Assembly: GCA_937927775.1 (NCBI GenBank)
Contig: CALBEF010000017.1
Coordinates: forward strand, 1 to 64,000
Reading direction: 5' to 3'
DNA length: 64,000 nt
Source: an uncultured Anaerolineae bacterium
GTDB taxonomy: Bacteria; Chloroflexota; Anaerolineae; J036; Brachytrichaceae
Made by a program: the position numbers and the translations under genes
The notes under the pieces: generated by a model
What the model was told of the DNA's origin: nothing
Seen by the model: only the letters and a program-made list of their open reading frames with translations
The model's database searches: none
Part shown: positions 10,600 to 63,704 of the stretch, in pieces
Numbering within the stretch: the stretch's first letter is position 1
Layout: each line of letters starts with the position of its first letter

Positions 10600-12059
10600 G
10601 GGCGACGCTGAATCCTCTGCCGCGCATTGTCGTCGCCGCGCCCAGCAGCGGCTGCGGCAAGACGACCGTCGCCGTCGGCGTGATGGCGGCGCTGGCCGAA
10701 TCCCGGCGCGTGCAGCCTGTTATGGTTGGGCCGGATTACATCGACCCGATGTATCACACGCTGGCATGTGGCCGCCCATCGCGCAATCTGGACACGTGGA
10801 TGGTTTCCCCGGCGCGCGCGCGGGCGCTCTTTGATCGCGCCGTTGCCGACGCCGATGTAGCCGTCATCGAGGGCGTCATGGGTCTCTTCGACGGCTACGC
10901 GGGCGACAGCGAGAGCGGCAGCACGGCTGAAGTCGCCAAATTGCTGGGCGCGCCGGTCATTCTGGTGATGGATGTGTCGCGCATGGCCCGCAGCGCCGGC
11001 GCAATTGCGCTGGGGTGCCAGATGTTTGATCCGGCGCTGAAAATCGCCGGTGTCATCTGCAACTACGTCGGCGGCGCGCGCCATGCCGAATGGGCGCGCC
11101 AGGCGATTGAATCCACCGGCATCCCGGTGCTGGGCTGCCTGCCGCGCGCGGAAGCCCTGCGCGTTCCTGAACGACATCTGGGCTTGCACACGGCCGTGGA
11201 GCGCCAGGCTGAGGCGGCGCAGTTTGCGCGCCGCGCCGCCGAGCTGCTGCGCGCGCATGTCGATGTGGATCGCCTGCTGGCGAATGCTGTTCAGGCTGCG
11301 CTTCAACCCTTGCTGTCCGGCCTTGATCTGCGCCCATTATCGGATGACGTATTCACGCCGGCAACGCCTTCGCCTGTTTCCCCCGTTCGGATCGCTGTGG
11401 CGCGGGATGAAGCGTTTTGCTTCTACTACGAGGACAATCTCGACTTGTTGCGGGCTGCCGGCGCAGAGATTGTCTTCTTTAGCCCGTTGCGCGATGTTGA
11501 CTTGCCCGCCGGCGCGCAGGGCGTTTACATCGGCGGCGGCTACCCTGAGTTGTACGCCGAGCAACTGGCATCGAATCTCGCCATGCGCGCGGCGCTGCGG
11601 CGCGCGCATCAGGCCGGCCTGCCGATTTACGCTGAATGCGGCGGTTTGATGCTCCTCACAGAGCGTCTGGTGGATTTGCAGGGGCGCGCGCATGAGATGG
11701 CCGGCCTTGTCCCCGGCATTGCGCGGATGCAGTCGCGCTTGAGCATGGGCTACCGGCGCGTTGTGGCGCGCCGCGACACACTCTTGTTGCCCGCCGGCCA
11801 CGCCGCGCGCGGGCACGAGTTTCATTATTCGACCTGGGAGACGCCCGACGCCATCGCCGAATGGCGCGCCTATGACATTGCGCCGCGCGCGGAACTTTCG
11901 CCCGCTGAAGAGACGCGCGCCGAAGGGTTTGCCTTCGGCAATTTGCTGGCGTCCTACGTGCACCTGCACTTTGCCGCCGAGCCGGAGCTGGCGCGGCGCT
12001 TTGTCGCCGCCTGTCGCGTTGCGCCGGGGGTGGGGGAGGGCCATGTCACAGGCGCGTAA
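10596..12059 (+). CDS. cbiA: Cobyrinate a,c-diamide synthase CbiA
   Basis: Amidates the a and c carboxylates of cobyrinate with glutamine and ATP. The 487-residue protein has a dethiobiotin-synthase-like ATP domain ([51 protein letters not shown]). A C-terminal class I-type glutaminase domain has the Cys nucleophile in [16 protein letters not shown] (about residue 348) and His in [30 protein letters not shown] is also characteristic. Length fits CbiA/CobB. Start and stop overlap neighbouring genes (ATGA with btuC, 17 bases with cbiP). Confidence 0.95.
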
Positions 12060-13539
12060 TCTGATGTTGCTGGGGACACACAGCAGCGCCGGCAAAAGTC
12101 TGTTGACGGCTGGCTTCTGTCGCCTGTTTGCCCGCATGGGTTATCGCGTGGCGCCGTTCAAGGCGCAGAACATGAGCAACAACGCCGGCGTAACGCCCGA
12201 AGGCGGCGAGATGGGGCGCGCGCAAATCATGCAGGCCGAGGCAGCCGGCATCGCCCCCCACACCGATATGAACCCCGTCCTGCTCAAGCCGGAGGGCAAC
12301 CGGCGCAGCCAGGTTGTGTTGAATGGCTGCATGGCCGGCCACATCGAAGCGGCCAATTGGCTGGAGTGGAAGTCGCTTCTTTGGGAGCACGTCCGGGCTG
12401 CTTACGCGCGTTTGTCGGCGCGCTACGACCTGATTATTCTGGAGGGCGCGGGCAGCCCGGCCGAGATCAACCTGAAGGCCGGCGACATCGCCAACCTGCG
12501 CATGGCGCGTTTCGCCAATGCGCCCTGCTTGTTGATCGGCGACATCGACCGGGGCGGCGTGTTCGCGGCGCTGGCCGGCACGATGCTCTTGCTTGAACCC
12601 GACGAGCGCGCCCTGATTCGCGGCTTTCTCATCAACAAGTTTCGCGGTGATCCGGCCCTGCTCGGCGATGGCCTGCGCATGTTGCAAGCGCGCGCTTTTA
12701 ATGTGCCGACGCTGGGCGTAATTCCCTTCATCCCTAATTTGCGCCTCGCTGAAGAAGATGCGGTTGCGCTCGAGCGGCCTGCGGCGCAGCCGGTGGCGCA
12801 GACCGGCAGCCCGTGCGTGGATATTGCGATTATTCAGCTTCCGCGCATCGCCAACTTCGACGAGTTTGATCCCTTGCTGGCCGAACCGCAGGCGCGCGCG
12901 CGGTATGTCGGGCGCGCTGAAGACCTGGGCCGGCCAAACGCCATCATTCTGCCCGGCACCAAATCGACGCTGGCCGACCTGGCCTGGCTGCGCGAGACTG
13001 CGCTTGACCAGGCCATCCTGCGCGCTCATCAGAATGGCGCGGTGGTCGTGGGGATATGCGGCGGATACCAGATGCTGGGCCGGCAGGTCAGCGATCCGCA
13101 TGGCGTTGAAAGTGAACCCGGATCGACAGTGTCAGGGCTGGGCTTGTTGCCGACGGTCACCGTCTTCGCAGCGGAGAAGCAGACGTGCCAGGCAATCTTG
13201 CGATTCCCCGATGGTCAATCTGCGCGCGGCTATGAGATTCACGTTGGCGAAACGATGCTGCTGCCCGGCGCCACACCGTTTGGCGAGATTGTGGCGCGCA
13301 ACGGCCAGCCTGTTCGGTCGCCCGATGGCGCCGTGAGCGCAGATGGGCGCGTGTGGGGCAGCTACCTGCATGGGCTGTTCGAGAACGACGCTTTTCGCCG
13401 GCGCTGGCTGGCCGATCTGGGCGCGTTGTCTGACGGGCCGGCGATGGGCGCCTTGCGCAACGCCGAGTACGACCGCCTGGCCGACACGCTGGCCGCCTCG
13501 GTTGACCTGCCGGCCATTCGGCGGTTGATGGGAGCGTAA
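12043..13539 (+). CDS. cbiP: Cobyric acid synthase CbiP/CobQ
   Basis: Amidates the b, d, e and g side chains of adenosylcobyrinate diamide. The 498-residue product begins [19 protein letters not shown] with the P-loop, then [20 protein letters not shown] and [13 protein letters not shown], all classic Cob[20 protein letters not shown] and [16 protein letters not shown] follow. The glutaminase Cys is in [13 protein letters not shown] (about residue 338), and [10 protein letters not shown] carries the C-terminal His. GGGGGAGG lies upstream of the chosen ATG. A reading frame that starts earlier is open across the end of cbiA but has no family similarity there. Last gene before the riboswitch. 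Confidence 0.96.
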
Positions 13540-13565: not shown

Positions 13566-13586
13566 CTTGCGCCAAATTGAATAGAC

Positions 13587-13837
13587 GGTCAGGGTGACCC
13601 GATCATCCGGCGCAAGCGGATGTGAAAGGCCCGGATGCCAGGGCGTAAAGGTGGAAGCCGGTGCAAGGCCGGCGCTGTCCCGCAACTGTAATCGCTCAAA
13701 AAGTAGTCAGTACAGAGTAGTCAGTAGTCAGATCAATGACTTCTAACTACTAACTACTAACTACTAACTACTGACTACTGACTACTGACTACTGACTTCT
13801 GACTTCTGAGCCGAGAGCCAGGACGCCTGCCCTGACC
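13587..13837 (+). promoter_or_regulatory. Cobalamin riboswitch aptamer
   Basis: Adenosylcobalamin-class riboswitch. A perfect 8-bp closing helix forms between GGTCAGGG (13587-13594) and CCCTGACC (13830-13837). The conserved core runs from GGAAGCCGGTGCAAGG near 13653 to CCCGCAACTGTAA at 13679-13691, the family's signature B12 box. The 3' conserved strand GAGCCAGGACGCCTGCC is at 13815-13831. Between the core and this 3' strand, where these aptamers vary, about 120 bases of heptamer repeats are inserted, making the element longer than usual. It precedes a CUT1-type transporter and the late cobalamin genes, which it should turn off when cobalamin is abundant. Confidence 0.95.
13703..13806. repeat. 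Heptamer tandem repeat hairpin inside the riboswitch
   Basis: Nine 7-base units run without interruption from 13744 to 13806: four TAACTAC, three TGACTAC and two TGACTTC. Three inverted copies (GTAGTCA) stand at 13703-13709, 13717-13723 and 13724-13730. The two arms can pair into a long stem (GTAGTCAGTAGTCA with TGACTACTGACTAC) closed by a loop around 13731-13771. The array sits in the variable region of the cobalamin aptamer and leaves both conserved strands intact. Confidence 0.9.
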
Positions 13838-13880
13838 TGAATCTATCTGAGAGCCTTCTCGGATGCAAGGAGGTGACAGC

Positions 13881-13898
13881 ATGATTCGAGCGCCCTGA
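13881..13898 (+). other. Possible five-codon leader ORF behind a perfect Shine-Dalgarno sequence
   Basis: AAGGAGGTGA at 13867-13876 is a full ten-base complement to the 16S rRNA tail, and ATG follows after four bases. The frame reads Met-Ile-Arg-Ala-Pro-stop. It lies between the aptamer and the intrinsic terminator. It could be a translated leader that affects read-through, a ribosome entry site controlled by the riboswitch, or the relic of a lost gene start. No function can be shown from sequence. Confidence 0.35.
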
Positions 13899-13953
13899 GC
13901 GCGCCCAGGGGTGTCCCTGATGTCGCGCAGATCGTTGTTTCGATTCATCCCTG

Positions 13954-13980
13954 CCCGGTCGAGATGATCGGGTTTTTGTT
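13954..13980 (+). terminator. Intrinsic terminator of the riboswitch expression platform
   Basis: CCCGGTC (13954-13960) pairs with GATCGGG (13966-13972), seven base pairs including one G-T, around a GAGAT loop, followed directly by TTTTTGTTTG. It lies 117 bases after the aptamer and 39 bases before the next gene, as expected of a transcription-attenuating riboswitch. An alternative pairing of its left arm with upstream sequence was not resolved by eye. Confidence 0.8.
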
Positions 13981-14018: not shown

Positions 14019-15374
14019 ATGACACACAAATCTTTGTGGATCAGGGCGCTTGCTGCCGGCCTGGCGCTGATGGTGGCCGCAAGCGCGTGCAGCGTCAGGC
14101 CGGTCGAACCGGCAGCGCAGCCGGGCAGCGATCAGCCGGCCCCGGCGGCTGCCGAAAAGGTTGTGGTGCGCTGGTCGGTGTGGGGCAGCGCCGAGGAACT
14201 GGCCAGCCATCAGGCAGTGGCCGACGCTTACATGGCGGCCCATCCTAATGTGACGATCAACATAGAGCATACGCCCTGGGATGGCTATCACGACAGGTTG
14301 AAGACATTAGTGGCTGCCGGCGATCCTGGCGCGCTGGCCGACGTGATCTTCCTGGGCCAGGACTACAACCGCTACGCGGAAAGCGGCGTGCTGGAGCCGC
14401 TGGATGACTGGATTGCCAAAACAAACTACGATCTGTCGGATTACTGGCCGACCGTCATAGAGCGCGCGCGCGTCAACGGTAAAATCTACGGCCTGCAGCG
14501 CGACTTGGATCTGCGCCTGCTGTACTACAACAAGGCGATGTTCGACAAGGCCGGCGCCGCCTACCCGAACGAGAACTGGACGTGGGACGATTGGGCCGAA
14601 GCCGCGCGCGAGCTGACGATTATCGAGCCAAATGGCCGCATTGCCCAGCAGGGCATCGGCATGGAGACCGGCAAGTGGAGCATGCTGCTGGCGCAAACGA
14701 ACGGCGGCTACCTCGACGACCCGCGCAATCCCTCGCGCTGCGCGCTGGAAGATGCCAACAGCCTGGAAGCCGTCACCTTCTTCGCCGGCCTGATTCGAGA
14801 CAAGGCGGCGATGACGCCGGCTGACCTCAAGCAGATCGGCGGCGACGCGGCAGCCTTTCAGCAGGGCCGCGTAGCCATGATCGTTCAAAACTCATCCCGC
14901 GCGCCGACATTCAACGCCGCCGGCATGGACTACGATGTGGCGCCGATCCCGATTCCCAAAGGGGGCGCGCGCGTTAACAATGTGGGCGGCGCGCGTTTCG
15001 TCATGAACAGCGCAGCCAGGAACAAGGAAGCAGCCTGGGCTTTTCTGAGCTGGCTGCAGGGGCGCGAGGGCGGCCAGGCGATCTACACCAGGCGCGGCGA
15101 TATGTTCCCCATCCTGCGCTCGGTGGCGAATTCTGATGATTTCCTGAAACTGCCGATCAAGCCGGACAACCGCGCTGCTTTCGTTGTCGAGGCCAGCAGT
15201 GTGCGCCTGTTCACTTTTGGCGACTTTCCGGAGTATGACGAGATGAACGATCTCATCATCGAGCCGAATTTGCAGCGCATCTGGGGCGGCGAAGCGGAAG
15301 CTGAGGCAACCGTGCGCGACATCTGCCAGAAAGTGAACGAGTTTCTCAAGCAAAACGGCTACCCCAGGCCCTAG
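14019..15374 (+). CDS. CUT1-type (family 1) ABC transporter substrate-binding lipoprotein under cobalamin riboswitch
   Basis: A 451-residue extracellular binding protein of the MalE/UgpB family. The signal peptide ends in a lipobox (VAASAC, Cys24) and a Pro/Ala linker follows. The core begins VVVRWSVWGSAEELASHQAV, with HPNVTINIEHTPWDGYHDRL and GKIYGLQRDLDLRLLYYNKA. The C-terminal lobe has AAAFQQGRVAMIVQNSSRAP and a WAFLSWLQGREGGQ segment. GGAGG precedes the ATG. Family members usually bind sugars or glycerol phosphates. Here the first gene behind a B12 riboswitch, it may bind a corrinoid, a corrinoid precursor such as a nucleoside-like lower ligand, or something whose use depends on cobalamin status. 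The substrate is unknown. Confidence 0.9.
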   Translation: MTHKSLWIRALAAGLALMVAASACSVRPVEPAAQPGSDQPAPAAAEKVVVRWSVWGSAEELASHQAVADAYMAAHPNVTINIEHTPWDGYHDRLKTLVAAGDPGALADVIFLGQDYNRYAESGVLEPLDDWIAKTNYDLSDYWPTVIERARVNGKIYGLQRDLDLRLLYYNKAMFDKAGAAYPNENWTWDDWAEAARELTIIEPNGRIAQQGIGMETGKWSMLLAQTNGGYLDDPRNPSRCALEDANSLEAVTFFAGLIRDKAAMTPADLKQIGGDAAAFQQGRVAMIVQNSSRAPTFNAAGMDYDVAPIPIPKGGARVNNVGGARFVMNSAARNKEAAWAFLSWLQGREGGQAIYTRRGDMFPILRSVANSDDFLKLPIKPDNRAAFVVEASSVRLFTFGDFPEYDEMNDLIIEPNLQRIWGGEAEAEATVRDICQKVNEFLKQNGYPRP

Positions 15375-15388
15375 TCAGACATTGATTT

Positions 15389-15417
15389 GGCCGGCGTTGC
15401 TTTTGTCAACGCCGGCC
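15389..15417 (+). repeat. Perfect hairpin between binding-protein and permease genes
   Basis: GGCCGGCGTTG (15389-15399) and CAACGCCGGCC (15407-15417) form an 11-bp perfect stem with a CTTTTGT loop. No T-run follows, so it is more likely an RNA-stabilising or partly attenuating structure than a full terminator. In maltose-type operons such hairpins raise binding-protein over permease levels; a similar one lies at 26363 in the same relative place. Confidence 0.75.
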
Positions 15418-15428
15418 ACTCGCTTCTT

Positions 15429-16361
15429 ATGAACAATCACGCGCGCTTCACAGCCTTTCGCTGGCGATCCGATCAACAATGGGAGGGGTATGTCTTTCTG
15501 TTGCCCAGCCTGATCGGGTTGTTTGTGTTCAGCCTGTTGCCGGTGCTCTTTTCGCTGGGCATCAGCCTGCACGAGTGGGATTTGCTCACCCCGCCGGTGT
15601 TTGTGGGCCTGAAAAATTTTCGCAATCTGTTCACGCAGGACTTAATCTTCTCTGAGGTCGCCGCCAATACCGTCTTTTTCTGCGTTGCGATTGTGCCGCT
15701 GCAAATGGCCCTGAGTCTGCTGCTGGCGCTGGCGCTGACACGCCGGCTGCCCGGCGCGCCGCTCTTTCGCGCGATTTACTACATGCCGGTGGTCACCACG
15801 ATCGTCGCAGCCGCGATGATCTTTCAGTGGGTCTTTGATCGCAACTATGGCCTGTTCAGCAGCGTGGTGTGGGGCGTTGGCAGTTGGCTGAATGCGCCGC
15901 TCGCGCCGCCGGACTGGTTCAACAACGGCTTCTGGGCCAGATGGGCGGTGGTCATCCTGACGTTGTGGAAGAACAGCGGCTTTACAACGGTGATCTTCAT
16001 GGCCGGCCTGCAAGCCATTCCGCGCGTGTTGTATGAGGCGGCCGCAATTGACGGAGCCGGCCGCTGGCAATCTTTTCGCCACGTCACCCTGCCCATGCTC
16101 AGCCCCACCATCTTCTTTCTTGCCATCATTCTTATCATCGGCGCTTTTCAGTTGTTTGGCGAGTCGTATGTGATGACCGGCGGCGGGCCTGGCTACGCCA
16201 CCATGACGGTTGTGCAGTACATCTATCAGTCTGCCTTCAGCTATTTCCGCATGGGCAAAGGGGCGGCGCTTTCGTGGGTTCTGTTTGTTGCCATCTTTGC
16301 CCTGACGCTGGCGCAGTGGCAGTTGCAACGCAAATGGGTGCACTATGAGAGCAATACCTGA
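15429..16361 (+). CDS. CUT1-type ABC transporter permease (MalF-like)
   Basis: About 310 residues with six hydrophobic segments, for example GYVFLLPSLIGLFVFSLLPV and AANTVFFCVAIVPLQMALSL. The cytoplasmic EAA loop is YEAAAIDGAGRWQSFRHVTL followed by PMLSPT, which docks the ATPase. FVGLKNFRNLF is typical of MalF/UgpA-type permeases. The ATG at 15429 was chosen; an in-frame TTG at 15387 would place the intergenic hairpin inside the coding sequence. It overlaps the second permease by 17 bases. With the preceding binding protein it forms part of an importer that lacks its own MalK-type ATPase in this window. Confidence 0.9.
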   Translation: MNNHARFTAFRWRSDQQWEGYVFLLPSLIGLFVFSLLPVLFSLGISLHEWDLLTPPVFVGLKNFRNLFTQDLIFSEVAANTVFFCVAIVPLQMALSLLLALALTRRLPGAPLFRAIYYMPVVTTIVAAAMIFQWVFDRNYGLFSSVVWGVGSWLNAPLAPPDWFNNGFWARWAVVILTLWKNSGFTTVIFMAGLQAIPRVLYEAAAIDGAGRWQSFRHVTLPMLSPTIFFLAIILIIGAFQLFGESYVMTGGGPGYATMTVVQYIYQSAFSYFRMGKGAALSWVLFVAIFALTLAQWQLQRKWVHYESNT

Positions 16362-17202
16362 CGCCGCGCAGCCCCGGCGCGGCTATAGTCTGCCGGACGC
16401 GATCGTGTTTGCCTTAACAGCCGCCGGCGCTGTGTTGATGCTCCTCCCCTTCGCCTGGATGGTGAGCACGTCGCTGAAATCGCCGGCTGAAGTGTTTGCT
16501 TATCCCGTGATCTGGATTCCCCGCCAGCCGATGTGGAGCAACTACGCCCAGGCGTTTGGGATCGCCGGCTTTGACCGCATGTTCTTCAACAGCGTCTTTA
16601 TCGCCACAGCGTCAGTCACGCTCAATTTGCTCACGTCCTCGCTGGCCGGCTTCGCTTTTGCCCGGTTGCGCTTTCGCGGGCGCGATATTCTGTTTGCGCT
16701 CTATCTCGCTACGCTGATGATTCCCGGTCAGGTGACGCTGATTCCTGTTTTCATCCTGATTCGCGCGCTGGGCTGGTACGATTCCTACGCGGCGCTGATT
16801 GCGCCTTCGGCGGTGTCTGTGTTCAGCGCGTTTCTATTGCGCCAGTTCTTCCGCAGCATTCCGCCGGATTTGGACGAAGCTGCCCGCATCGATGGGGCCG
16901 GTTCGCTGCGCATCTGGTGGCAAATTGCGTTGCCCCTGGCGCGTCCGGCTCTGGCAACCGTCGCCGTGCTCAGCTTTCTGGGCAGTTGGAACGATTTTCT
17001 CTGGCCCCTGATCGTCATTCACAGCCGCGACCTGTGGACGATTCCACTTGGCCTCAGCATGTTTCAGGGCCAGTATGCGGTGCAGTGGCATTTGCTAATG
17101 GCCGGCACAACAATTGCTGTGCTGCCGGTGTTGCTGCTATACGCTGTCGGCCAAAAGTGGATTGTGAGCGCGACTGCCGTCGCTACGCGAGGCAACGCAT
17201 AA
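16345..17202 (+). CDS. CUT1-type ABC transporter permease (MalG-like)
   Basis: The 285-residue second membrane subunit. It starts near YSLPDAIVFALTAAGAVLML, has MVSTSLKSPAEVFAYPVIWI, and an EAA loop DEAARIDGAGSLRIWWQIAL followed by PLARPAL. SFLGSWNDFLWPLIVIHSRD and TIPLGLSMFQGQY are typical of MalG/UgpE. The next gene starts right after its stop. The only ATPase in this transcription unit is the FecE/BtuD-like gene at 18056, which normally serves a different permease fold; a shared MalK-type (MsmX-like) ATPase encoded elsewhere is the more usual arrangement. Confidence 0.9.
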   Translation: MRAIPDAAQPRRGYSLPDAIVFALTAAGAVLMLLPFAWMVSTSLKSPAEVFAYPVIWIPRQPMWSNYAQAFGIAGFDRMFFNSVFIATASVTLNLLTSSLAGFAFARLRFRGRDILFALYLATLMIPGQVTLIPVFILIRALGWYDSYAALIAPSAVSVFSAFLLRQFFRSIPPDLDEAARIDGAGSLRIWWQIALPLARPALATVAVLSFLGSWNDFLWPLIVIHSRDLWTIPLGLSMFQGQYAVQWHLLMAGTTIAVLPVLLLYAVGQKWIVSATAVATRGNA

Positions 17203-18084
17203 ATGGCTGTGAACAACACCTCGACTTCGATTCGCCGGCGCGTTGCGTTCGATTTTGCGGCTTTCTGGGACGAGTGTGTGCGCCGCGACCCGTATAACCG
17301 ATTGAACGCGCAGGACGACCTGGCATTCTGGGAACGCTACGCGCCGCTGTACGACCAGCGCGCCGGCGCGTCCAACTCAGCGGCGCGCACGTTGCAACTG
17401 ATTCGCCGGCACACGCGCCCCGGCGACACCCTGCTGGATGTCGGAGCCGGCACGGGCCGCTTCGCCGTGCCGCTCAGTCACTATGTTCAATCGGTGACGG
17501 CGCTCGATCACTCGCCGCACATGCTCGACGTGCTTCATCGCAAAGCCGCCGCCTGGCGCGTCAATAACATTCAGACTGTGCAAGCCGACTGGACCGCCTA
17601 TTGCGCTGAGCCGCACGATATCGTCATTGCTGCGTGGTCGCTCTATCGACAACCCGTTTTGCTGGATGCCATGCGCAAACTGGTGGAGGCGACTCGCCGG
17701 CGTCTGTTTATCGTGGCCGAGATCAAGAGCTGGCCGCCACACCGCGTGATTGCCGAAGACATCTGGCCGGAGCAGTACGCGCATGAGATCGACACGCCAA
17801 TGCACCTGAGTTTTCTGGGCGCGCTATGGCAACTCGGCGCGCACGCCGATCTGCGGGTGATCCGCGAACAGCGCGTGTTCACTGCCAGGACGCCGACTGA
17901 ACTGGCGTCCCGGTTTGCGCCCTCCCAGGCCAGCCCGGCGGAAATGGAGCGCTTCACAGCGCGCCTCGCTCCCTGTTTCAAGCGTTCCGCTCGTTTCTGT
18001 GTCTATCGCGTGGTCGAACCGGTTGCGGTAATCTTGTGGCGCGCAGACGAAGCCCATGTCCGAGTGCCTGCTTCAAGCGATTGA
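17203..18084 (+). CDS. Class I SAM-dependent methyltransferase of unknown substrate, in cobalamin operon
   Basis: A 293-residue protein. The SAM-binding loop LLDVGAGTGRFAVPL lies near residue 76, with VTALDHSPHMLDVLHRKAA as the acidic motif II and PHDIVIAAWSLYRQPVLLDA in the post-II region. A roughly 100-residue C-terminal part (RVIAEDIWPEQYAHEIDTP and following) is not one I recognise. It starts at the base after the second permease stop and overlaps the next ATPase by 29 bases, so it is co-transcribed with transporter and late cobalamin genes. It is not one of the tetrapyrrole methylases of the pathway. It could modify the imported compound, a lower ligand precursor, or the corrinoid periphery. 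Function unknown. Confidence 0.8.
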   Translation: MAVNNTSTSIRRRVAFDFAAFWDECVRRDPYNRLNAQDDLAFWERYAPLYDQRAGASNSAARTLQLIRRHTRPGDTLLDVGAGTGRFAVPLSHYVQSVTALDHSPHMLDVLHRKAAAWRVNNIQTVQADWTAYCAEPHDIVIAAWSLYRQPVLLDAMRKLVEATRRRLFIVAEIKSWPPHRVIAEDIWPEQYAHEIDTPMHLSFLGALWQLGAHADLRVIREQRVFTARTPTELASRFAPSQASPAEMERFTARLAPCFKRSARFCVYRVVEPVAVILWRADEAHVRVPASSD

Positions 18085-19099
18085 TCTGACCGTTGGCTAC
18101 CCGCTGCGCAAGCGGGGCGCGCCGGCGGCCCGCGTGATTTTGGAGCGCGTCAATGCCGAACTGCGCCCCGGCGAACTGGTCTGTCTCGCCGGCCCGAACG
18201 GGGCCGGCAAATCCACGCTGCTGCGCGCGCTGTGCGGGTTGCAAGCCCCCCTGGGCGGGCGCGTCCTGTTGCTCGGCCAGGATTTGCGCCGTCTGAGCGC
18301 CGGCGCAATCGCCCGCCATTTGAGTCTCGTGCTGACCGAGCGTGTGGATGTGGGAAATCTCACCGTGTTCGACCTGGCCCTGCTGGGGCGGCATCCGTTT
18401 ACCAACTGGCTGGGGCAGGCTGCGCCGGAAGACGAAAGCATCGCGTGGGAGTCGCTGCGCGCGGCAGGCGTTGACCATTTGGCACAGCGCTCGCTGCGCG
18501 AATTGAGCGACGGCGAACGACAAAAAGCGCTGCTGGCGCGCGCGCTGGCGCAACAGCCGCGCATTCTGCTGCTCGATGAGCCGACCGCTTTTCTGGATTT
18601 GCCGCATCGCATTCAAATGCTGCACTTGTTGCGCCGGCTGGCGCAGGCTGCGCCCCGGCGCGCTGTGGCGCTCTCCACGCACGATCTGGACCTGGCGCTG
18701 CGCGTGGCGGATGTCATCTGGCTGTTGCCGGGCGACGGGCTGTTGCATATCGGCGCGCCCGAAGACCTGGTGTTGAGCGGCGCGTTCGACGCGGCATTCA
18801 GCCGGCATGATGTGCGCTTCGAGCCTGCCGCCGGCGTCTTTCAGCAGCAGACACCCCGCCTGCTGCGCGCCAGCGTCATCGGCCACGGCCTGCGCGCCGT
18901 TTGGACGCAGCGCGCCCTGGAACGGTTGGGATTTGACGTGCGCGCCGACGCGCCCATCCAGGTGGAGTTGTTGCACAAACACGGCCAGACGCGCTGGCGG
19001 CTCAGCGCAAATCATCATCAAAGCGAGCACGACAGCATTTATGATTTGTGCAAACAACTGGATCAGCTCTTCGATCTCCATGTTCTCAAACACCCGTAA
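18056..19099 (+). CDS. btuD: FecE/BtuD-family ABC ATPase with C-terminal extension
   Basis: ATPase of a corrinoid or chelate importer, 347 residues. Walker A is GPNGAGKSTLLRALCG (about residue 45), the signature is ELSDGERQKALLARALAQQP (about 150), Walker B is RILLLDEPTAFLDLPHR, and the H-loop is VALSTHDLDLALRVAD. The ABC domain ends around residue 245. About 90 further residues (PRLLRASVIGHGLRAVWTQR, then RWRLSANHHQSEHDSI) form an extra domain found in some archaeal and actinobacterial BtuD-like ATPases. It should pair with BtuC/BtuF encoded at 8.2-10.6 kb. It overlaps the methyltransferase by 29 bases and CbiB by 20. Confidence 0.88.
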   Translation: MSECLLQAIDLTVGYPLRKRGAPAARVILERVNAELRPGELVCLAGPNGAGKSTLLRALCGLQAPLGGRVLLLGQDLRRLSAGAIARHLSLVLTERVDVGNLTVFDLALLGRHPFTNWLGQAAPEDESIAWESLRAAGVDHLAQRSLRELSDGERQKALLARALAQQPRILLLDEPTAFLDLPHRIQMLHLLRRLAQAAPRRAVALSTHDLDLALRVADVIWLLPGDGLLHIGAPEDLVLSGAFDAAFSRHDVRFEPAAGVFQQQTPRLLRASVIGHGLRAVWTQRALERLGFDVRADAPIQVELLHKHGQTRWRLSANHHQSEHDSIYDLCKQLDQLFDLHVLKHP

Positions 19100-31070: not shown

Positions 31071-31230
31071 GTAGTGCGTGGTGCGTATTGCGTGGTACGT
31101 ATTGCGTGTTGCGTATTGCGTATTGCGTATTGCGTGTTGCGTATTGCGTATTGCGTGTTGCGTGTTGCGTGTTGAGTGGTATGCGTGATACGGAATACGA
31201 GACACGGAATACGAAATACGAAATGCGAAT
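31071..31230. repeat. Heptamer tandem repeat array between glycosidase genes
   Basis: About 23 units of seven bases, mainly GCGTATT and GCGTGTT on the left (31084-31175), then ATACGAA/ACACGGA-type units of opposite sense on the right (31187-31230). The arms are partly complementary. The array begins right upstream of the mannosidase start (minus strand) and happens to be free of stops in that frame, where it would encode NTQYAIR-like heptapeptides. It probably arose by slippage; it does not look like CRISPR because there are no spacers. Confidence 0.9.
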
Positions 31231-52936: not shown

Positions 52937-52950
52937 GACCCGACCTCGTC

Positions 52951-53062
52951 AGAGCGCAGAGCACAGATGACAGATGATAGACGACAGAGCACAGAGCGCG
53001 GATGGCAGACTGACGAATACGCAATACGCAATACGCAATACGCAATACGCAATACGTGACAC
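52951..53062. repeat. Sixteen-unit degenerate heptamer array
   Basis: The whole stretch can be cut into seven-base units in one register: AGAGCGC, AGAGCAC, AGATGAC, AGATGAT, AGACGAC, AGAGCAC, AGAGCGC, GGATGGC, AGACTGA, CGAATAC, five GCAATAC and GTGACAC. The right half (GCAATAC) is the reverse-complement type of the GCGTATT units at 31.1 kb. It fills the gap between the isochorismatase-like gene end and the small membrane protein start. Confidence 0.85.
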
Positions 53063-53063
53063 G

Positions 53064-53774
53064 CTATTCCAGTCGCGCCACAACCTCGACGCCGTTGGCC
53101 GCCATGTTGAACAGGAAAATGGCGTGCAGCAGGTCGCCGTCGTGCGGCGGAATGCCCAGCTTTTCCGCGACATCCAGCGGCGTGTGGTAGGTCTGCACGC
53201 AGTCGGCCGGCAGGATGACGCGCGCGCCGGCCTTCTGGAACTCATTGGCCCGCAGCCGCAGGTGCATGGCAAGCTGATAGGTGCACAGGTCCGAGCAGTC
53301 GCCGGTGACGATGAAGGTGTCCACCTCTGGGTGCTGGTCGAGCCAGCGATCCAACTGTCCGTTGACGGATGACGAGATCGAGTTCTTCTCGATCACGACA
53401 TATGTTTCCGCGAAGGGCAACGCTTTCAACTCCGGGGCTGTTTCCGACTCGGCGGTGTCGCGGATGCAGTGAGGCGGATACTGCCGGAACTCGACCGCGT
53501 CCGGGGCGTGGGCATCCTGAGTGAGAACGAAATGACGCACGCCCAGTGCGTGCGCGGCGGTGAACAGTCGGGCGATTGGGGCCACGATGCCCTGCACGCG
53601 CGGGCTTGACAGGGGGCCGATGGTGCAGAACCCATTGATGACATCGACACACAAAACAGCAACTCGCTCGGGCTGCTGGATGACTGATTGCAGCTTCAGG
53701 GCCGGGCGGTTGTTCAACCATCGCTCGACATGATCCACGAAGCCGGCCGAGCGCTGCGCAAGAGAACTGCTCAT
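53064..53774 (-). CDS. Isochorismatase/nicotinamidase-family cysteine hydrolase
   Basis: A 236-residue alpha/beta hydrolase of the cysteine type. The triad is expected as Asp in VAVLCVDVINGFCTIGPLSS, Lys in YVVIEKNSISSSVN and Cys in FIVTGDCSDLCTYQLAMHL. FVLTQDAHAPDAVEF and PPHCIRDTAESETAPEL add further family residues. The family includes nicotinamidase, N-carbamoylsarcosine amidase and isochorismatase; this one looks like the nicotinamidase-type subgroup, but the metal-binding His/Asp cluster is not clear. Single gene; its upstream region 53775-54055 is shared with the divergent export operon. Confidence 0.85.
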   Translation of the reverse strand: MSSSLAQRSAGFVDHVERWLNNRPALKLQSVIQQPERVAVLCVDVINGFCTIGPLSSPRVQGIVAPIARLFTAAHALGVRHFVLTQDAHAPDAVEFRQYPPHCIRDTAESETAPELKALPFAETYVVIEKNSISSSVNGQLDRWLDQHPEVDTFIVTGDCSDLCTYQLAMHLRLRANEFQKAGARVILPADCVQTYHTPLDVAEKLGIPPHDGDLLHAIFLFNMAANGVEVVARLE

Positions 53775-62218: not shown

Positions 62219-62246
62219 ACGCAACACGCAACACGTAATACGCGCT
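62219..62246. repeat. Short heptamer array at the rhaB/chbG junction
   Basis: Four units: two ACGCAAC, one ACGTAAT and one ACGCGCT. It spans the chbG start-side gap and touches the rhaB stop. Unit sequence is related to the AATACGC/ATACGAA units at 31.2 and 53.0 kb. Confidence 0.65.
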
Positions 62247-63662: not shown

Positions 63663-63704
63663 CAATCGTCAATTTTCAATCGTCAATCGTCAATCTTCAA
63701 CTGT
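63663..63704. repeat. Heptamer array between rhaI and rhaB
   Basis: Six units: CAATCGT, CAATTTT, CAATCGT, CAATCGT, CAATCTT and CAACTGT, filling the 47-base gap between the isomerase stop and the rhaB start. Any rhaB ribosome binding site would have to lie inside the repeat; none is apparent, so translation may depend on coupling. Confidence 0.8.

Follow-up and report, generated by a model that had tools for sequence, protein, structure and literature searches.

Cyanobacteria that form heterocysts are reported to have STRR within their RNase P RNA (Vioque 1997, cited in PMC2858038). In Nostoc, degenerate heptanucleotide repeats in the group I intron of tRNA-Leu (UAA) pair to form the P6b hairpin, and their copy number differs between genotypes (PMC3488679). 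Heptameric direct repeats of the TAACTGA type occur in Beggiatoaceae, cyanobacteria and Bacteroidetes (PMC4679880). Cobalamin riboswitches, among whose established elements is the P6 extension (PMC9911696), differ between classes in their peripheral elements, and in Mycobacterium tuberculosis the B12 riboswitch has a short translated upstream open reading frame (ORF) nearby, the start region of which can be masked by the riboswitch (PMC11260477). Searches of an open-access library turned up no previous description of riboswitches with repeat arms.

The stretch of DNA analysed here, 64,000 nucleotides long and referred to as the window, contains a cobalamin riboswitch with a heptamer array in its P6-extension arm (Table 1). 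The Rfam scan matched RF00174 inside the window at 13624–13848 with 42.4 bits, and the search of the whole genome at 13580–13848 with 45.5 bits; the full model was matched, and both scores lie above the curated gathering score of 31.5 bits. P1, P4, P6 and the B12 box were all identified from the RF00174 alignment and from pair probabilities, and P1 covaries among homologues, with GTCAGG/CCTGAC in the window and GTCGAGG/CCTCGAC or GTCAAGG/CCTTGAC elsewhere. The array is located between CAACTGTAA and the B12 box. Its inverted strand (13703–13730), made up of three exact inverted copies and one degenerate copy, is separated by GATCAA (13731–13736) from the direct heptamers; TRF assigned a period of 7, with 10.4 copies and 93% match, and the lag-7 identity of the arm, 0.71, exceeds that of all 3000 dinucleotide-preserving shuffles. 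The sequence-only reading had described a heptamer hairpin in the variable region of a B12 riboswitch whose conserved parts and P1 were intact. Sequence, TRF and Rfam agree with this, with coordinates correct to within a few bases; the covariance model of the cobalamin family and pair probabilities of 1.0 for P1 and P4 bear out the assignment, and the RF00174 alignment and the fold identify the variable region as the P6-extension arm. The three inverted copies it had counted are those that are exact, whereas its nine tandem units are in fact ten.

In itself, a heptamer array is nothing rare in the window or in the genome, and the aspect of this array that is not due to chance is its location together with its two-armed build. 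Arrays of other heptamer units are also present in the window, at 31071–31229, 52950–53064, 62219–62243 and 63663–63700.

Table 1 Features of the riboswitch leader in the window, and related arms, genomes and RNAs.
Feature	Position or locus	Strand	Size or unit	Basis or remark
Cobalamin riboswitch aptamer (RF00174)	13580–13848	+		42.4 / 45.5 bits
P1, 5′ strand, GGTCAGG	13587–13593	+		Partner 13831–13837, pair probability 1.0
P4 hairpin, GCCGG-TGCAAGG-CCGGC	13657–13673	+		Sequence; pair probability 1.0
P6-extension arm, closing TCGCTC / GAGCCGA	13692–13814	+	123 nt	Arm extraction and fold
Inverted strand of heptamer hairpin	13703–13730	+	GTAGTCA, GTACAGA, GTAGTCA, GTAGTCA	Sequence, fold
Ten direct heptamers	13737–13806	+	TGACTTC, 4× TAACTAC, 3× TGACTAC, 2× TGACTTC	Sequence; TRF period 7
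B12 box, GAGCCAGGACGCCTGCC	13815–13831	+		RF00174 alignment
P1, 3′ strand, CCTGACC	13831–13837	+		Pair probability
Candidate P13 / anti-SD hairpin, CCTT(CTCG...)AAGGAGG, with the Shine-Dalgarno (SD) of the leader ORF	13854–13873	+		Sequence
Leader ORF, MIRAP stop	13881–13898	+	Five codons	Sequence; family comparison
Intrinsic terminator, stem followed by TTTTGTTTGA	13953–13980	+	9-pair stem	Stem and tract
Extracellular solute-binding protein SBP_bac_1, sugar-type ABC importer, first downstream gene	14019–15374	+		PF01547, E 6e-38
Riboswitch arm, C17 (window)			123 nt; GACTACT
Riboswitch arm, C87			102 nt; GACTACT
Riboswitch arm, C106b			184 nt; GACTACT
Riboswitch arm, C106a			111 nt; different unit, ACAGATG/TCTGTGT
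Same-genus relative, Thermoflexales bacterium SKYG113 (G001)	JANWVJ010000101.1
Same-genus relative, Ca. Roseilinea mizusawaensis AA3_104 (G002)	JAEANN010000046.1
RNase P RNA with P12 heptamer hairpin	L145 1501–1926 (G000:C134), L156, L163, L165		80–96 nt	Window genus and genus g2

Folded in isolation, the arm reached −36.0 kcal/mol, against −23.0 ± 3.3 kcal/mol for dinucleotide shuffles, none of which (0 of 200) was as good, ruling out chance or base composition as the source of the hairpin. The long stem expected by the sequence-only reading is predicted to form as a separate unit with negligible pairing to the core. In silico, P1 and P4 keep a pair probability of 1.0 with the array present, excluding a disruption of P1 or of the core by the repeat; P6 has a probability of 0.65 with the wild-type arm, versus 0.67 with the short arm of a relative, and cross-pairing between wild-type arm and core amounts to 0.09 nt. 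When the direct (3′) array was left on its own, predicted cross-pairing with the core rose to 9.5 nt and P6 fell to 0.16, and shuffled arm interiors gave 13 ± 8.5 nt of pairing with the core and a P6 probability of 0.15. Because the core is invaded once the inverted strand is removed or the arm is shuffled, it is the inverted strand that, in silico, renders the insert harmless. In these folding models, which leave out the L5–L13 pseudoknot and cotranscriptional folding, the arm is under evident folding constraint.

The window genome (G000) is a draft of 135 contigs and 3.55 Mb, which its kinship with two same-genus relatives would assign to Candidatus Roseilinea, Chloroflexota; the sample of the genus comprised three genomes with eight riboswitches in total. 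An RF00174 search of the window genome yielded four B12 riboswitches, all four with a long repeat arm (102–184 nt), compared with a hairpin of mostly 13–33 nt elsewhere in the family. The three arms of the GACTACT type have a common 5′ half and loop, CAGTACA.AGTAGTCAGTAG.CAGATCAA.G, a likeness suggesting that they may stem from one ancestral event or be copies of one another; they do not count as three independent insertions. One of them, C106b (L131 and L004; G000:C106:36809–37027, minus strand), precedes cobT- and cobS-like genes, named from protein sequence, and scores only 24.1 bits with RF00174, below the cut-off, probably on account of its 184-nt repeat arm. Real riboswitches with long arms can fall below the Rfam cut-off in this way, and annotation pipelines would miss C106b.

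The C106a riboswitch is orthologous to G002:C48 and G001:C2, the proteins encoded downstream being 53–82% identical. The sequence-only reading had suggested an arm length that varies between strains; between species, arm length and even the unit do differ at the orthologous riboswitch: the arm is 111 nt long and of the ACAGATG type in the window genome, 88 nt long and of the GACTACT type in Ca. Roseilinea mizusawaensis, and a 44-nt relic in SKYG113. These differences show directly that length and unit alike turn over fast from one species to the next. Homologues of the genus that lack a long arm have arms of 15, 19 and 44 nt, which argues that the long arm is not required.

Periodic arms recur across the class. 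Cobalamin riboswitches were surveyed in 150 of its genomes, giving 104 arms from 36 families, with long arms deliberately over-sampled and about nine arms not reliably extractable. Periodicity was significant (p < 0.01, dinucleotide-preserving shuffles) in 21 of the 49 long arms, defined as those of at least 33 nt, and in 20 arms when mononucleotide shuffles were used; with lags 4–14 scanned, the best lag of the periodic arms was always 7, 14 or 8. These arms span 11 families (f1, f11, f12, f16, f19, f20, f21, f24, f33, f39 and f47), f19 being the weakest. All 20 periodic arms tested for folding are hairpins, with a mean folding z of −7.3 and each at or below −3.1. The unit of the f16 arm, GGTATTA, is dispersed in two of the three host genomes tried, with 13 pattern matches in G077 and 66 in G147 and none for the reversed control; its presence at so many other places indicates that the arm units are the host genome's own.

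About 43 other arrays of the GACTACT unit are dispersed in the window genome, mostly between genes. Their mean folding z is +1.3 (43 arrays), and two-armed copies, with several inverted units nearby, occur at three loci only (C32, C2 and C100). The 5′ half GTAGTCAGTACA.AGTAGTCAGTAGTCAGATC is common to riboswitches and to the intergenic loci C32 (L086) and C2 (L089); as the GACTACT arms share this half with each other and with these two loci, copying between loci has occurred. The heptamers of the window genome display two marks of the STRR type, dispersal in tandem arrays between genes and insertion in peripheral stems of structured RNA, namely the P6 extension of four riboswitches and P12 of RNase P RNA. 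Rfam scans of 40 array loci returned no other structured RNA apart from one tRNA, which lies outside the array, and no similar DNA was found in the plasmid collection. The loop motif CAGATCAAYGACT also matches at C103 and C135, where no array surrounds it, most likely by coincidence. Many of the intergenic GACTACT arrays (within L082–L126) stop only a few bases 5′ of a start codon and have the GACTACT sequence on the coding strand.

The repeats in cyanobacterial RNase P RNA are reportedly heptamers located in P12. The RNase P RNA of the window genome has a 96-nt P12 built from ATTGACG-like units and their complements, and P12 is likewise a period-7 hairpin in G002 (95 nt), G003 (87 nt) and G019 (80 nt); in the remaining members of the family it measures 22–44 nt. 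In the window genome, inspection by eye revealed no heptamer insert in the tmRNA or in two TPP riboswitches, so not every structured RNA has been colonised.

The explanation that we hold with good confidence is that the peripheral P6 arm owes its added length to a two-armed heptamer microsatellite, through a process in which dispersed repeats colonise tolerant stems, are kept there only where they form a self-complementary hairpin, and change rapidly. Dispersed intergenic arrays would reach stems that tolerate added length, such as P6 of all B12 riboswitches of the window genome and P12 of RNase P. One-armed arrays would invade the ligand-binding core and be lost, and arrays with complementary units on both strands of the stem would fold on themselves and be retained; slippage and copying would then quickly alter the number and sequence of units, with P1, the core, the B12 box and the expression platform conserved. 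The computations establish where the array sits, its self-complementarity, the in-silico insulation of the core, the recurrence, the turnover between species and the dispersal of the unit; from these we infer that the filter is selection on RNA folding and that the arm has almost no effect on switching. With four of four riboswitches, further families and the P12 of RNase P all affected, this looks mainly like recurrent, tolerated colonisation and not like a special device of one switch.

An arm that tunes the riboswitch through its length or stability, with copy number as a tuning knob between strains, would account for the retention of a long arm by every riboswitch of the window genome, for periodic arms in 11 families and for the evident folding constraint. 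It could operate by holding back the B12 box and P1 for about 100 nt of transcription, since added length necessarily postpones completion of the aptamer, or by steadying P6. We nevertheless consider it unlikely, given that homologues of the same genus manage with the short arms listed above, that the unit sequence is freely replaced and that a similar insert in P12 of RNase P points to a general process and not to a use specific to riboswitches. Rather unlikely, too, is a class-wide and repeatedly evolved adjustment of B12 riboswitches, in which the number of units would set arm length and folding time, and slippage would shift the response with the core left untouched. The sharing of GTAGTCAGTACA.AGTAGTCAGTAGTCAGATC between riboswitches and the C32 and C2 loci does imply that segments move from one locus to another, as they would if a mobile palindromic element (MITE- or REPIN-like) preferred B12 riboswitches as insertion sites; yet by eye the copies have no fixed ends or lengths and share the inner half, the fourth riboswitch of the window genome has a different unit, the 7- and 8-mers of other families are unrelated and the unit mostly occurs in one-armed arrays, making such an element very unlikely. 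Very unlikely, too, is the proposal that the repeats are sites for a regulator acting outside RNA structure, as put forward for the Beggiatoaceae TAACTGA heptamers, and that their location in a riboswitch is incidental. Many intergenic arrays do end a few bases 5′ of a start codon, as in PMC4679880, but the riboswitch array is paired, the closest candidate start codon is 75 nt away, and orthologues have another unit in place of this one.

The riboswitch is flanked by a CobB/CobQ-type gene (12046–13539) and by an operon starting at 14019; the adjoining CobB/CobQ-type and FecCD-type transporter genes are consistent with B12-related control. The region 14019–19099 encodes the solute-binding protein, two sugar-type ABC permeases, a methyltransferase and an ABC ATPase, and this importer would be an unusual candidate for regulation by B12. 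Downstream of the aptamer, the motif CCTTCTCGn...CAAGGAGG recurs 3′ of most riboswitches of the family, and the conserved candidate SD-bearing hairpin is positioned where the kissing-loop partner in L5–L13 is expected. The 5′ strand of this hairpin, CCTTCTCG (13854–13861), is complementary to GAGAAGG in the loop or stem of many terminators of the family, and the terminator of the window (13953–13973) has GAGATGA instead. Pairing of CCTTCTCG with GAGAAGG could possibly form an antiterminator that couples release of the SD to read-through. A further complementarity of ten bases links CCCGATCATC near the 5′ end of the aptamer (13598–13607) with GATGATCGGG in the terminator (13963–13972), and this pairing shapes the free fold of the entire leader.

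The leader ORF, with the intrinsic terminator of the window 3′ of it, is conserved in the family. An ORF of the form M-x-x-(A/G)-P-stop directly follows the SD hairpin in 26 of 36 family riboswitches (loci L003, L035, L046, L034, L131 and L045 among them), and 29 of 36 have an ORF of exactly five codons. All four proline codons and all three stop codons are used across the family, and MARAP, MAKSP, MAQGP, MTYGP and MIRGP were found in three further families. Peptides with proline before the stop codon terminate slowly, which would suit a stalling device, a mechanism put forward here as a guess. A length-invariant ORF of five codons ahead of a terminator merits separate study.

The window riboswitch resembles other members of RF00174 in its conserved core, B12 box, P1, downstream SD hairpin and terminator, and departs from them in an arm of tandem repeats of 7 or 8 nt, which reaches up to 184 nt. 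A short ORF near a B12 riboswitch is shared with Mycobacterium tuberculosis, where it is translated, the ORF of the window being known from sequence; in contrast to the mycobacterial one, it has five codons, a near-invariant length within the family, an Ala/Gly-Pro-stop end and a terminator after it. Abundant intergenic heptamer arrays, often just 5′ of start codons, are a likeness to the Beggiatoaceae TAACTGA repeats, which the abstract of PMC4679880 describes mainly as direct repeats, with no mention there of a riboswitch arm. As with the cyanobacterial STRR (Vioque 1997, cited in PMC2858038), dispersed short tandem repeats are found within structured RNA; the differences lie in the Chloroflexota host, the other units and a riboswitch that is also affected. 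With 11 families and units that are always 7 or 8 bases long, the class offers a natural length series for the effect of the arm on the ligand response. As in the Nostoc P6b, heptamers are paired into a variable peripheral hairpin (PMC3488679), which in Nostoc belongs to a cyanobacterial self-splicing intron and in the window to a ligand-sensing leader. What is known from a group I intron and from RNase P RNA, that a functional RNA can accommodate fast-evolving microsatellites provided that these fold back on themselves, is thereby extended to a riboswitch.
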